Positions 1 through 24,397 of a DNA stretch of 32,443 bases are shown in pieces (within the stretch, counting starts at the first letter, position 1; the number at the start of each line of letters is the position of its first letter). The position numbers and the translations under genes were made by a program. Origin of the DNA: an uncultured bacterium (GTDB taxonomy: Bacteria; Patescibacteriota; Minisyncoccia; Phycocordibacterales; GWA1-40-21). The stretch lies in NCBI GenBank assembly GCA_903850545.1, contig CAINLW010000048.1, positions 1 to 32,443 on the forward strand, given 5' to 3'. Under the pieces are notes generated by a model. It saw only the letters and a list, made by a program, of their open reading frames with translations. It had not been told where the DNA came from and made no database searches.

Positions 1-277
1 GGCAACAGAGAAAGAATTGGGTCGAACCCTTGCGGAGTTTCGTTTTGTCCTTGAAACAAGCGGCCGATTTAGAAAAAACTTCCAATCATTTAGAATGGAA
101 GAAGTTTTTTCAGAAAATCGGCTCTAACCCTGAAATCAAGAACAAAACGGTTTCCATACGCTGGGGGGAATTATGGGATTTCGCTATGTCCGCCAAGGGC
201 GGACAAATTTCCGACTATTTTTGTATCGCTTCGCGATACTCTTTTGACCCGACCATTTTTGCCGATGTCTCTACCTG
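1..277 (-). other. Structured non-coding segment downstream of tRNA-Leu(UAG)
   Basis: No convincing gene; the open frame on the plus strand runs into the tRNA and is an accident. Read on the minus strand (3' of the tRNA), the DNA is full of stems: 222-240 (GTATCGC/GCGATAC), 188-204 (GTCCGCC/GGCGGAC, 3-nt loop), a long hairpin 63-122 whose arms begin GCCGATTT and end AAATCGGC, and an outer stem pairing 41-54 with 136-149. The motif TAGCGAAAT, shared with the tRNA-linked elements further on, occurs around 177-186 (minus). No antisense copy of this tRNA is visible, so it is at most a diverged relative of those elements. It is cut by the window edge. Confidence 0.45.
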
Positions 278-1091: not shown

Positions 1092-1097
1092 AATTGG

Positions 1098-1266
1098 TGC
1101 CTGGGGTGGGAAGTTCGACCCTTACAGGGTCAGTATCCCCATTGGATATTTTGTTTCGCTATGCTCGCAAAATATACACAATGGGGCTTCGATTTCCACA
1201 CGAAAGTGCTCCCAGCACTTTCTCCCAGGCACAATAAAAAAACCGCTTTGTGCGGATTTTTTAGTG
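1098..1266 (-). repeat. tRNA-linked foldback element after tRNA-Leu(UAA) (type B)
   Basis: Read on the minus strand from the tRNA 3' end: a loop with a short stem; an antisense copy of the acceptor (plus strand CCCAGGCAC at 1224-1232); an inserted hairpin with arms GAAAGTGCT/AGCACTTTC; an antisense copy of the T-arm (plus 1188-1201); then a core. The core has an outer stem (plus CCCCATT 1137-1143 with AATGGGG 1180-1186), an inner stem ATATTTTG/CAAAATAT, and the hairpin GACCC-TGTAA-GGGTC (plus 1117-1131). It ends with a second sense copy of the tRNA 3' end: plus 1098-1112 is identical over 15 nt to 1267-1281 in the tRNA. The core covaries with those at 1485-1649 and 24111-24397. Function unknown. 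Confidence 0.8.
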
Positions 1267-1350
1267 TGCCTGGGGTGGGAATCGAACCCACATGATGTTG
1301 CCACCGAGAGATTTTAAGTCTCTAGCGTCTACCAATTTCGCCACCCAGGC
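1267..1350 (-). tRNA. tRNA-Leu (anticodon UAA)
   Basis: Minus-strand type II tRNA with acceptor GCCTGGG/CCCAGGC, discriminator A, anticodon stem AGAGA/TCTCT with loop CTTAAAA (anticodon TAA), a long variable arm and the T-loop TTCGATT. No intron is present, although tRNA-Leu(UAA) is a classic group I intron host in other bacteria. CCA is not encoded. A foldback element carrying copies of its 3' end follows directly. Confidence 0.96.
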
Positions 1351-1371
1351 AGGATAATAATGCGTATTAAA

Positions 1372-1649
1372 ATTTGGGTCCCACCCCAAATCTTAATTAG
1401 GAGAAACGTGATTACGCTTTCGGTCACGAATAATTTGTTCGCCGTCGCTCACAAATTTTCGCTACCCCGACTCGCACCCGATTTTTGCTTAAATCGGACT
1501 TCGTGACTCTTACAGAGTCTGTACACCTGTTCTGTTTTATATTTTGCTATCGCTTATATAAAACTATCACAGGTCTTGCGTTTGGGTCCCAACCCAATCT
1601 CACTCCGTCTTTCGATTCTCCCCGAAACTCACTTCCAGTGAGTTTCTTG
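1372..1649 (-). repeat. tRNA-linked foldback element after tRNA-Cys (type B) with extra stems
   Basis: On the minus strand, directly after tRNA-Cys: a hairpin GAAACTCACT/AGTGAGTTTC, then GGGGAGAATCGAA, which is antisense to the tRNA-Cys T-arm (plus about 1608-1620), then AAGACGGAGT and a stem GGGT..ACCC also found after tRNA-Phe. Core stems are ACCTGT/ACAGGT (plus 1525-1530 with 1569-1574), an inner TTTTATAT/ATATAAAA and the hairpin GACTC-TGTAA-GAGTC (plus 1505-1519). The antisense acceptor seen in other copies is missing. Further stems lie between 1372 and 1490, and the GGGT-CCCA-CCC stem is repeated at 1372-1394. No clear second sense copy of the tRNA-Cys end was found, so this copy may be damaged. 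Confidence 0.7.
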
Positions 1650-1721
1650 AGGCCTGGGGGAGAATCGAACTCCCGCATATTCCTTTTGCAGAGGAATGCT
1701 TTACCACTTAGCAACCAGGCC
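1650..1721 (-). tRNA. tRNA-Cys (anticodon GCA)
   Basis: Minus-strand cloverleaf with acceptor GGCCTGG/CCAGGCC, anticodon stem TTCCT/AGGAA with loop CTGCAAA (anticodon GCA), and a T-arm containing GTTCGATTC. The discriminator is U, as expected for tRNA-Cys. CCA is not encoded. Confidence 0.96.
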
Positions 1722-4899: not shown

Positions 4900-6111
4900 A
4901 TGCAAAAAATATATTTAGACAACTCTGCCACAACACCAGTAGATAAAGAAGTTTTGAAAACAATGGCCAAATATTGGTCAAGCAATTTTGCAAATCCAAG
5001 TTCAATACATTCAATGGGTGTTACGGCAAAAATTGCGCTTCAAAAATCTAGAAAGATAATTGCGGATTTAATAAACGGACATGATAGAGAAATAATTTTT
5101 ACTTCAGGTGGAACTGAAGCAAACAACTTGGCAATTTTTGGTTTAATAAATGACGTAAGAAAATCAAACAGGAAATATTCAGAAATTCATATTATTACTA
5201 CCGAAATCGAACACAGTTCTATTCTTGAATGTTTAAAGGAAATTGAATCTAGGGGTGGAAAAATAGATTATTTGAAAGTGGACGAATTTGGACTAATAAA
5301 TCCAAAAGATTTGCGAGAAATGATTAAGCCCGAAACGTTGCTTGTTTCGATCGGTTATGCAAATGGAGAAATTGGAGTTGTTCAATCTATTAAAGAAATA
5401 GCAAAAGAAATCAGAAACAAAAGAAGAGAATACAGCGGTAGCAGGTTTGGTCAGCCGTATTTGCATATAGATGCGTCAGCCGGTGGACTTTATCTAAACA
5501 TAAATGTGGAAGAACTAGGGGTTGATCTTATGACACTCGATGCACAAAAAATATACGGTCCAAAAGGAGTTGGTGCGCTTTTTGTTCGCGATGGAATAAA
5601 AATAAGCCCAATGATTTTTGGTGGAGGACAAGAAAGAGGAATTAGAAGTGGAACAGAAAATATTCCGCTGATTGTTGGCTTTGCAAAAGCTTTTGAAATC
5701 GCAAGAAAAATGAAAGACAAGGAAAGTTTAAGATTAATAAAGATAAGAGATGAATTTTTTAAATTAGTTAAAAGATTCGTTCCAAATGTTGTAATTAATG
5801 GTAGTTTGGATGCTCGACTTCCAAGTAATATTAATATTTCTGTCCCTGATCAAGATGGGGAAATGTTAGTTTTTAGATTAGATGAAGCTGGAATAATATG
5901 TTCTTCTTCAAGTGCCTGTGCTTCTGGAAGCGGGGAATCGGTAGTAGTAAGAAAACTTGCTGAAAAAACTGGCGCAAGTAAAGAAGAAATAGACTCCCGT
6001 GCCAAATCAACCCTTAGGTTTTCATTGGGGAAAGCCACAAAAATGAATAATATTAAAAAGTTGTTAAAAGTTTTAAAGAAATTGACTGGTGATTCGAAAG
6101 TTTGTTTTTAA
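4900..6111 (+). CDS. iscS: Cysteine desulfurase (NifS/IscS family)
   Basis: A PLP enzyme that takes sulfur from cysteine as an enzyme-bound persulfide for Fe-S clusters and tRNA thiolation. Visible landmarks: IYLDNSATTP at the N-terminus, TSGGTEANN (PLP phosphate), EIEHSS (the active-site His), HIDASAGG, the PLP lysine in LDAQKIYGPKG (about residue 216; most homologues have a His before this Lys, here Gln), RSGTENIP, and the sulfur-carrying Cys in SSSACASG (about residue 340). The product is 403 aa from the ATG at 4900; another in-frame ATG is at 4885. TATAAA lies just before the later ATG, so the message may be leaderless. No IscU or thiolase partner is in the window. Confidence 0.94.
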   Translation: MQKIYLDNSATTPVDKEVLKTMAKYWSSNFANPSSIHSMGVTAKIALQKSRKIIADLINGHDREIIFTSGGTEANNLAIFGLINDVRKSNRKYSEIHIITTEIEHSSILECLKEIESRGGKIDYLKVDEFGLINPKDLREMIKPETLLVSIGYANGEIGVVQSIKEIAKEIRNKRREYSGSRFGQPYLHIDASAGGLYLNINVEELGVDLMTLDAQKIYGPKGVGALFVRDGIKISPMIFGGGQERGIRSGTENIPLIVGFAKAFEIARKMKDKESLRLIKIRDEFFKLVKRFVPNVVINGSLDARLPSNINISVPDQDGEMLVFRLDEAGIICSSSSACASGSGESVVVRKLAEKTGASKEEIDSRAKSTLRFSLGKATKMNNIKKLLKVLKKLTGDSKVCF

Positions 6112-6144
6112 GGTAACATTGTATTATAATATTTATTAGTTAAT

Positions 6145-6184
6145 TATTCGTAGCCATTCGTAAAATTCGCATAATTTTCGTATC
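6145..6184 (+). repeat. 40-nt intergenic repeat, copy B
   Basis: One base different from copy A (2144-2183) and one base from the reverse complement of copy C (22591-22630). Its end is only 3 nt from the ATG of the HtrA-like gene at 6188, so it forms or replaces that gene's ribosome-binding region; no Shine-Dalgarno site is present. Confidence 0.9.
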
Positions 6185-6187
6185 CTA

Positions 6188-7048
6188 ATGGAACACCTTA
6201 CTAAACAACAAATAATACTACTTACACTTTTGGTTAGTTTTGTCACGTCTATTGCGACGGGGATTGTTACAGTTGCCCTTATGAACCAGGCTCCTGTGGG
6301 AGTTGTTCAAACAATAAATAAAGTTGTTGAAAGAACCATTGAAACTGTTTCTGCTCCAACAAAAGAGACTCAAACAATAGTTAAGGAAACAGTGGTTGTT
6401 AGTACTGATGACCAAATTGTTAGCGCAATAGAGAAAAATTCAAAAAATGTAATAAGAATTTATAGGACAAATACTGATCCAACTGCGGACTCAAATCAAA
6501 TGGTATTTGTTGGTTTAGGAGCGCTCATTTCAAGTGAAGGAATGATTGCAACTGACAATAATATAATTTCTGATGGCGGAAAGTATTTTGCAACTCCTGC
6601 AGATAAGTTACTTGAATTAACCGTTGTGAGATCAGTTGGCGGAGAAAAGATTGCTTTGCTGAAAATAAAAAATGATGAAAAAAATCCAGTAACTTTTCCA
6701 AGTGTTGTTATTTCAAAGAGTGATTTAAAATTGGGACAGGCTGTAATTTATATTGGGGGAGAAACAAAAGACTCGGTTTTTAACGGAATAATTTCTAGTT
6801 TATCTGCAAAAGAAATAAAACCTACCGATAATGCTACATCTACTTTAGTTACAACAAAAATATCATCAATTGAAACATCAATACCAAACAACTTTATTTC
6901 AGGTGGTTTGTTACTCAATCTTTCAGGAGAACTTGTGGGAATAAAAACTGTTTTTGTAGATAGTTCAAAAACCGATTTATTTACTTCAAGTACCGATATT
7001 CAAACAGCACTTTCTGCAGTTTCAAATTCTCAGAAAAAAGCTCAATAA
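6188..7048 (+). CDS. Trypsin-like (HtrA/DegP-type) membrane-anchored protein, probably not catalytic
   Basis: An N-terminal signal anchor (about residues 8-32), a V/T/E-rich linker to about residue 75, then a chymotrypsin-fold-like domain recognisable by order: VGLGALISSEGMIATDNNII, GGEKIALLKIK, LKLGQAVIYIGG, NGIISSL, and NFISGGLLLNLSGELVGIKT. Comparison with the usual motifs TNxHV, DLAVLKI and GNSGGP suggests that the catalytic His is replaced by Asn, the Asp by a non-acidic residue, and only the Ser-Gly-Gly remains. This looks like a pseudoprotease kept for binding, perhaps in envelope quality control. There is no PDZ domain. Family assignment is by motif order alone and is moderately sure. 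Confidence 0.72.
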   Translation: MEHLTKQQIILLTLLVSFVTSIATGIVTVALMNQAPVGVVQTINKVVERTIETVSAPTKETQTIVKETVVVSTDDQIVSAIEKNSKNVIRIYRTNTDPTADSNQMVFVGLGALISSEGMIATDNNIISDGGKYFATPADKLLELTVVRSVGGEKIALLKIKNDEKNPVTFPSVVISKSDLKLGQAVIYIGGETKDSVFNGIISSLSAKEIKPTDNATSTLVTTKISSIETSIPNNFISGGLLLNLSGELVGIKTVFVDSSKTDLFTSSTDIQTALSAVSNSQKKAQ

Positions 7049-23251: not shown

Positions 23252-23450
23252 CTATTTTAAAAACACCGTTAAGGTGTTTTTTAAAATAGTGCCCGAGAGT
23301 AAGCAAACTTCTTTGCTTACGCGCCGGAATCGAACAGCGGAATGATGTTCCACAAGCTTGTGGAACGAATGAGCTGGTGCCCAGACAAAGCTGAGTGTCG
23401 ACGAAGCTTTAGTTGAGGGAGAATGCGAAGCGCGTCCGGCCGAGGGTACA
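23252..23450 (+). repeat. tRNA-linked foldback element after tRNA-Arg (type A)
   Basis: The tRNA end GGGCACTATTTTAAAAACACC pairs with the following GGTGTTTTTTAAAATAGTGCC, forming a long hairpin that includes the acceptor 3' strand. Then comes antisense acceptor (GTGCCCGAG), an inserted hairpin GTAAGCAAA/TTTGCTTAC, and antisense T-arm (GCCGGAATCGAAC). The core 23332-23381 is 49/50 identical to 24001-24050 after tRNA-Phe and holds the stem GTTCCACAAG/CTTGTGGAAC. GAGTGTCGACGA is also shared. It closes with a second sense copy, TCCGGCCGAGGGTACA (23435-23450), matching the tRNA 3' end with one mismatch. The tRNA itself is intact. Confidence 0.85.
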
Positions 23451-23843: not shown

Positions 23844-23916
23844 GCCAAGGTAGCTCAGTTGGTAGAGCATATCCCTGAAGAGGATGTGGTCGTGGGTTCA
23901 AGTCCCACCCTTGGCA
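23844..23916 (+). tRNA. tRNA-Phe (anticodon GAA)
   Basis: Cloverleaf with acceptor GCCAAGG/CCTTGGC, discriminator A, D arm GCTCAGTTGGTAGAGC, anticodon loop CTGAAGA (anticodon GAA) and T-arm GGGTTCAAGTCCC. CCA is not encoded. Two foldback elements follow in tandem. Confidence 0.96.
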
Positions 23917-24110
23917 CATATTTAAAATCACCCATTTATATGAGTGATTTTAAATATGTGCCAAGGGAACGAGCTGACTGCTCAGCTCGTGTTGGGACTT
24001 GAACAGCGGAATGATGTTCCACAAGCTTGTGGAACAAATGAGCTGGTGCCTAACCCGAAGCGAGTGTCGACGAGCTGAGAGGTGAAGGAAAGATTCCCAC
24101 CCTTGGCACA
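23917..24110 (+). repeat. tRNA-linked foldback element after tRNA-Phe, first unit (type A)
   Basis: A hairpin joins the tRNA 3' end to antisense acceptor GTGCCAAGGG; an inserted hairpin ACGAGCTGA/CTCAGCTCGT follows, then antisense T-arm GTTGGGACTTGAAC. The core 24001-24050 differs at one base from that after tRNA-Arg. The unit ends with TCCCACCCTTGGCACA (24095-24110), identical over 16 nt to the tRNA 3' end (23903-23918). The interruption falls exactly between T-stem and acceptor. Confidence 0.85.
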
Positions 24111-24397
24111 AAAATAAAACCCCGAACAGGGTGTTTTGTTTTTGTGCCAAGGGAGGAAGCAAATTTCTTTGCTTCTGTTGGGACTTGAAAGACGGAGTAT
24201 GTCGCAAAGCGACTACGAGTCGGGTTGAGGATTGGGTGGGGACCCAACCGAAAGACCTTTTGAGATATTTTATGAGTGTAGCGAAATAAAATATCCAAAA
24301 TGGTGTACTGACCATGTAATGGTCGAGAGTACTTTGGCTTTTGCGAATACTTGAAGCAAAAGACTTAGTAACTCATGACCTAGCCACCCTTGACACA
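24111..24397 (+). repeat. tRNA-linked foldback element after tRNA-Phe, second unit (type B)
   Basis: This begins from the second sense copy of the tRNA end: a new hairpin, antisense acceptor GTGCCAAGGGA, an inserted hairpin GAAGCAAA/TTTGCTTC, antisense T-arm GTTGGGACTTGAA, then AGACGGAGTATG and the type B core. The core has outer ACC..TTTT/AAAATGGT, inner ATATTTTA/TAAAATAT and GACCA-TGTAA-TGGTC (24310-24324). A further hairpin CTTTTGC/GCAAAAG follows. It ends with CCACCCTTGACACA (24384-24397), a third copy of the tRNA end with one change. Confidence 0.85.

Follow-up and report, generated by a model that had tools for sequence, protein, structure and literature searches.

Three short repeats in this stretch each follow a tRNA gene and carry the same TGTAA loop on a stem whose bases differ from copy to copy, which raises the question of whether selection maintains a fold here and, if so, what kind of element is being folded. 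The window (the whole stretch of DNA analysed, 32,443 nucleotides) is contig 48 of a 985-kb genome. The original prediction had described the three copies, under the name type B, within positions 1098–1649 and had read their paired base changes as selection on an RNA or single-stranded DNA fold. All three copies were present, and the stem strings quoted for them were exact when read 5' to 3' on each element's own strand (Table 1). Only two of them lie inside that interval, however, the third being the copy in the second unit after tRNA-Phe. An internal TAGCgAAA was said to be kept; in the Cys copy it reads TAGCAAAA. Both the Leu and Cys copies read on the strand of their tRNA. For five single type B copies, folding z-scores relative to dinucleotide shuffles ranged from −3.5 to −5.5; the entire Leu unit reached −6.9 as RNA and −8.0 as DNA.

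Table 1. Features of the window and of the units discussed in the text, with scores from covariance models R1 (type B) and R2 (type A).
Feature	Position	Strand	Details
Empty insertion site	1..109	-	GAAACTCCGCAAGGG^TTCGACCC, point between 27 and 26
Direct copy of tRNA-Leu 3' end	1097..1112	-	TTCCCACCCCAGGCAC; 16-nt exact repeat of 1266-1281; closes outer stem with 1224-1232
Type B after tRNA-Leu(UAA)	1117..1227	-	Hairpin 1202-1222; HP2 1137-1186, with CCCCATT/AATGGGG 1186-1180/1143-1137 and ATATTTTG/CAAAATAT 1175-1168/1153-1146; HP3 1117-1131, GACCC-TGTAA-GGGTC (1131-1117); R1 51.8 bits, E 2e-10 (outside training set)
Inverted tRNA-Leu 3' end	1188..1232	-	Acceptor GTGCCTGGG 1224-1232 and T-stem/T-loop TGTGGAAATCGAA 1188-1200, split by hairpin 1202-1222; sequence and inverted-copy search
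Terminator-like hairpin with T-run, between tRNA-Leu and unit	1236..1261	-	Sequence
tRNA-Leu(UAA), source of flanking copies	1266..1350	-	ARAGORN
Type B after tRNA-Cys	1505..1604	-	HP1 1582-1597 (loop TTGGGA); HP2 1525-1574, with ACCTGT/ACAGGT 1574-1569/1530-1525 and TTTTATAT/ATATAAAA between these arms; HP3 1505-1519, GACTC-TGTAA-GAGTC (1519-1505); R1 94.4 bits, E 2.5e-20 (training member)
tRNA-Cys(GCA)	1649..1721	-	ARAGORN
Type A core after tRNA-Arg(CCU)	23335..23421	+	R2 107.5 bits (training member)
tRNA-Phe(GAA)	23844..23917	+	ARAGORN
Type A core, first unit after tRNA-Phe	24004..24090	+	R2 101 bits (training member)
Inverted tRNA-Phe 3' end, second Phe unit	24144..24189	+	GTGCCAAGGG, hairpin, TTGGGACTTGAA; sequence
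Type B, second unit after tRNA-Phe	24225..24324	+	HP1 ~24229-24249; HP2 ~24255-24302, stems ACC.TTTT/AAAA.GGT and ATATTTTA/TAAAATAT; HP3 24310-24324, GACCA-TGTAA-TGGTC; R1 101.6 bits, E 5e-22 (training member as L038)

The claim of covariation was to be given up if it disappeared once more copies were aligned; instead, it held decisively. Model R1 was built from 14 copies, and two of the three window copies are among its training sequences. In an enlarged set of 104 distinct type B copies, 21 of 22 pairs changed on both sides around the constant loop, and 92.5% of cells were standard pairs, compared to 36–53% when partners were slid by 1–3 columns. Two-sided cells, which count sequences and not events, numbered 381, versus 77 ± 7 expected by shuffling and 38–86 in the slid-partner controls. 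The covariation score (our own, not that of R-scape, on rows fitted to the covariance model and from copies that share ancestry) was 0.488, versus 0.138 ± 0.007 in shuffles and 0.05–0.08 with slid partners; none of 500 shuffles reached the observed value. Fitting of the alignment to a model and the counting of sequences would leave room for an artefact, either of the fitting or of a few related copies, but the slid-partner control keeps the relatedness and does not reproduce the signal. Most pairs, moreover, showed four or five standard pair types. The independent type A core, whose model was built from six copies, gave the same result (27 of 29 pairs with two-sided changes, 97.2% of cells paired) and covaries as strongly as type B. 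An artefact was thus tested and not supported, and we regard it as extremely improbable. Selection on the fold, as originally interpreted, is supported.

The type B core is about 85–100 nt long (median 98 nt) and consists of three stem-loops with the consensus (T/G)TGA-HP1(loop UGGGA)-GMAAGACC-HP2-GGUGUACWG-HP3(UGUAA). The two loops and the two joints are the unchanging parts, and the four helices were all 71–99% paired. HP2 holds a fixed purine internal loop, and its conserved foot flips from CC/GG to GG/CC in some copies. In strong pairs G-U cells exceeded A-C cells by 47 to 21, indicating that the folding strand is the one stated in Table 1. The single strand that folds may be RNA or single-stranded DNA, as either fits the data. 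In many copies (L024 1434–1533, for example) HP2 is topped by GAG-NNA-GCGAA-type loops with tandem G-A pairs, and GCGAAGC itself was present in 8 of the 104 copies. The GCGAAGC mini-hairpin is unusually stable as DNA.

In the host's order, 147 of 297 genomes had matches to the type B model (E ≤ 1e-3), spanning 94 of its 165 genera and often numbering ten or more copies per genome; many genomes of the order had no copy. Named records with the core include Nomura-, Zambryski-, Taylor- and Kaiserbacteria. Other orders of the class contributed eight genomes with sporadic matches, 1–2 copies each, and a sample of the phylum outside the order gave no type B match at E ≤ 1e-4. Type A occurred in 114 of the 297 genomes, and the two types co-occurred across genomes (OR 3.6). 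A third module, type C, has the form AGACGGAGC..GAGTCGGGGTCG-hairpin-GTGACC (window ~1420–1500, minus strand; L011 1501–1563; L014 1501–1553) and combines with type B in several units.

We then considered the surroundings of the cores. Among 69 type B loci chosen by model score alone, 32 were within 300 bp of a tRNA, and 30 of these 32 were on its strand; by our estimate such neighbourhoods account for just a few per cent of a genome of this kind. About half of the type B copies were away from tRNAs and appeared dispersed. Type A was more regular: 28 of 33 copies had a tRNA within 300 bp, always on their own strand, and nearly all of them lay downstream of it, at 50–130 nt and behind tRNAs of many isotypes. 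Its outer stems repeat the 3' end of that tRNA in inverted and in direct orientation, and copies of at least 9 nt matched the tRNA beside them in 81% of type A units, whereas matches to other tRNAs came to 19% and 2%. Of the 41 tRNAs scanned in the host genome, 18 had a downstream inverted copy of their own 3' end (at least 9 nt, within 130 nt of the tRNA), compared to 81 of 1640 cross comparisons. The inverted copy is followed by the core and then by the direct copy, so that a unit reads tRNA 3' end, hairpin (often terminator-like), acceptor', small hairpin, T-stem'/T-loop', core, T-stem, acceptor. The outer stems thus derive their sequence from the tRNA gene next to them, a relationship that the original prediction had missed. 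The direct and inverted copies might stem from fold-back copying or from local gene conversion that occurred repeatedly.

These arrangements also suit a host-beneficial structured RNA, in which the units would be transcribed, the outer stem would be seen by RNase P or RNase Z, and the released core would have a role in tRNA biology or serve as a regulatory leader, for instance ahead of metG. The fixed spacing and strand of type A behind many isotypes, the match of each copy to its own tRNA, the very strong covariation of both cores, and a type B copy that is identical before metG in two species (described below) are all as such a function would have them. Several tRNAs, however, are separated from their unit by a terminator-like hairpin, which implies that transcription driven by the tRNA is not needed for the unit. 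The dispersed half of the type B copies and the many genomes of the order lacking one fit poorly with a host function, as does the inverted copy, which continues into the gene's own trailer bases rather than the mature CCA end. We consider a host RNA unlikely as the overall explanation. The same trailer bases argue against mature tRNA as the template, and a reading of the inverted copy as a tRNA-primer site, similar to a retroviral primer-binding site, was dropped on these grounds.

Some loci hold more extensive tRNA remnants. Upstream of tRNA-Glu in several genera, a degenerate tRNA-Glu bears the core in its anticodon arm (L097, L113, L125, L145, L154 and L004), just upstream of the intact genes; either the genera share one old locus or it was targeted repeatedly. 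In L108 and L141 the similarity of the interrupted tRNA copies to the intact gene begins exactly at tRNA position 1 and ends in the T arm, as though the template had been a tRNA whose 5' end was mature. Genome G051 (L132, L117, L256) has cores between a truncated duplicate gene start and the intact start, pairs that parallel those of truncated and intact tRNAs.

Comparison of filled and empty sites revealed a second property that had been missed, namely that the type B core is a precisely inserting, dispersed cassette. Empty sites were found by joining the flanks of filled loci. Nine distinct insertions compared with ten empty sites all gave a net shift of 0, with no target-site duplication or loss, provided that the element is delimited as T(T)GA...TGTAAGG behind (A)GG. 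Insertion occurs exactly 3' of a target (A)GG or (A)AGG, and the element ends in its own TGTAAGG. Immediately to the right of the element, 1–3 bases usually depart from the target sequence and pair with the HP3 arm, which means that part of the HP3 covariation recruits target-derived bases. One of the empty sites is in the window itself (Table 1), and genome G122 (L240) holds a type B copy exactly at that point. With slashes for junctions and E for the element, the filled site reads GCAAGGG/E(..TGTAAGG)/TTCGACCC, and a Nomurabacteria record (L168) is empty with GCAAGGG/TTCGA; the counterpart of the filled site in the window and in the Nomurabacteria record is GCAAGGGTTCGA.

A second site, identified by synteny upstream of metG, carries type B in G119 and G041 and is empty in the congener G168; a short stretch of additional sequence lies to the right of this insertion. 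The copies just before metG (L222 358–442 in G119, and L229 in G041) were identical at 85 of 85 positions, and the upstream coding flanks differed at about 10 of 75 positions between the two species. Regulatory co-option of these copies is possible. In L132 the core is surrounded by a 67-nt direct repeat at the apparent start of an msrA-like gene, and this is not a clean insertion.

Dispersal was evident from near-identical type B cores at unrelated loci within G021, G150, G187 and G073, and from nesting of type B in tRNA copies, 5S-derived copies, palindromic repeats (e.g. CTGTCATTCCCGCG) and a type A core. Inverted repeats flanked 9% of copies beyond the 99% null (direct repeats, 15%), mostly tRNA copies, and were dropped as a rule. 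GC skew at 34 loci away from tRNAs averaged −0.045 (p = 0.03); this is weak for a replication-strand bias, which we did not use. The 5' arm of HP3 (NNCC) is exactly complementary to the target GGNN in L240 and L132; most other empty sites do not match, and a guide-target pairing remains a lead.

The best reading of these data, to which we give a probability of roughly 60%, is that type B is a non-autonomous, orientation-specific mobile cassette that folds as a single strand. Its folded strand would be the substrate for excision and insertion, and this could be the reason for the covariation. The strand is most likely single-stranded DNA on which a single-strand nuclease acts, of the HUH/Y1 type or another. 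AAGG, present both at the end of the element and in its target, would take the role that C_L and C_R have in IS200/IS605 elements. Hairpin loops and highly transcribed tRNA and 5S genes would be favoured as places that expose single strands, and at tRNAs the cassette forms the apex of a tRNA-like outer stem made from the inverted and direct 3'-end copies.

Movement could instead take place at the RNA level: a small ribozyme or retro-element would reverse-splice 3' of AAGG in loops of RNAs, tRNAs among them, and reverse transcription would follow. Exact insertion without duplication, the tRNA sense-strand bias (30 of 32), sites in the T-, anticodon- and variable-loop regions of tRNA copies, the tandem G-A pairs and the tolerance of G-U are each in line with this idea. 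Copies in antisense 5S-derived sequence (L022, L098 and L124) are not. A search of the window and eight element loci against Rfam 15 at a permissive threshold gave tRNA above the gathering score and otherwise weak chance matches, with no match to group I or II introns or a known ribozyme. Neither do reverse transcriptases track the core: RVT_1 occurred in 67 of 147 type B-positive and 66 of 150 type B-negative genomes (OR 1.07). We thus consider RNA-level mobility quite improbable, and reverse transcriptase was rejected as the mobiliser. The host genome's single RVT_1 match adjoins genes with diversity-generating-retroelement-like repeats. In contig 26 of G000 (L090, ~6030–7030), roughly 0.3 kb separates a type B copy from an RVT_1 gene upstream of it, and this gene adjoins others with diversity-generating-retroelement-like GGSHRVP.. 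repeats.

Returning to the single-strand cassette, Y1 transposase (Y1_Tnp, PF01797) was mildly associated with it (105 of 147 type B-positive versus 77 of 150 type B-negative genomes, OR 2.4). It was nevertheless missing from 14 of 46 type B-rich genomes, and none of the 32 Y1 loci examined carries a type B core, so Y1 was rejected as a necessary partner. Twelve type B-rich genomes lacked both Y1 and RVT_1; G020, G048 and G153 are examples. Neither enzyme is therefore required for the cassette. Several observations count against a mobile cassette: no fitting enzyme is found between the two that were tested; the fixed place and strand of type A at tRNAs resemble a functional unit more closely than they do random insertion; the identity of the metG copies despite a diverged flank could reflect host selection; and the repeat in L132 and the extra sequence at metG depart from clean insertion.

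A wider picture, which we hold only tentatively and rate well below even odds, would unite A, B and probably C as modular cassettes. The 3' ends of tRNAs would be copied both ways, giving a tRNA-like stem around a mobile, structure-selected core that spreads under the direction of AAGG through a possibly host-encoded enzyme. Such a system would represent a novel kind of tRNA-parasitic nucleic acid, confined almost wholly to one order of Patescibacteria. These genomes are tiny, yet at least 18 of 41 host tRNAs have units and half of the order's genomes have type B, a load on tRNA loci that is hidden from tRNA finders and RNA databases. Covarying stems, insertion exact to one base and tRNA-specific stems together offer a testable system for folded single strands that move between structured genes.

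Searches of phage, plasmid and IMG/VR sequences gave no match to the core, and the literature searched on Patescibacteria, tRNAs and repeats yielded no description of the cassette. We compared type B with known systems. Like IS200/IS605 elements, it is orientation-specific, has subterminal hairpins under selection (covariation, with G-U exceeding A-C), inserts 3' of a short motif without target duplication, and carries AAGG at its own end. Unlike them, it has no transposase inside or flanking the cassette and is taken up almost entirely by its three hairpins; no Y1 gene is detectable in 30% of the copy-rich genomes, and no transposase-encoding copy shares its ends (0 of 32 Y1 loci with a core). 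tRNA-targeting integrative elements likewise use the tRNA 3' end and leave a direct copy, whereas the type B cassette is very short, has no integrase gene, and comes with an inverted 3'-end copy that is different for each tRNA.

Two families of folded elements are similar in other respects. REP, BIME and REPIN sequences with RAYT (TnpA-REP) are also short, dispersed, folded, intergenic and mosaic in their module combinations. REPs are 20–50 nt palindromes preceded by GTAG (PMC8266576). Type B, in contrast, is 85–100 nt long with three hairpins, has tRNA copies as its outer stem and lacks a GTAG foot: GTAG outside the HP3 loop occurred in 18 of 104 copies, and the median length exceeds that of a simple REP palindrome. 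Integron attC sites are 57–142 nt, are recognised as folded single strands, and keep their structure while their sequence diverges (PMC2727003). Type B is of similar size and also keeps its structure as its sequence diverges, but it has no cassette gene and inserts at (A)GG, and the attC boxes R' (GTTRRRY) and R'' (RYYYAAC) were both present in 3 of 104 copies. We accordingly file type B with the dispersed structured repeats and non-autonomous hairpin elements, as a so far undescribed member.
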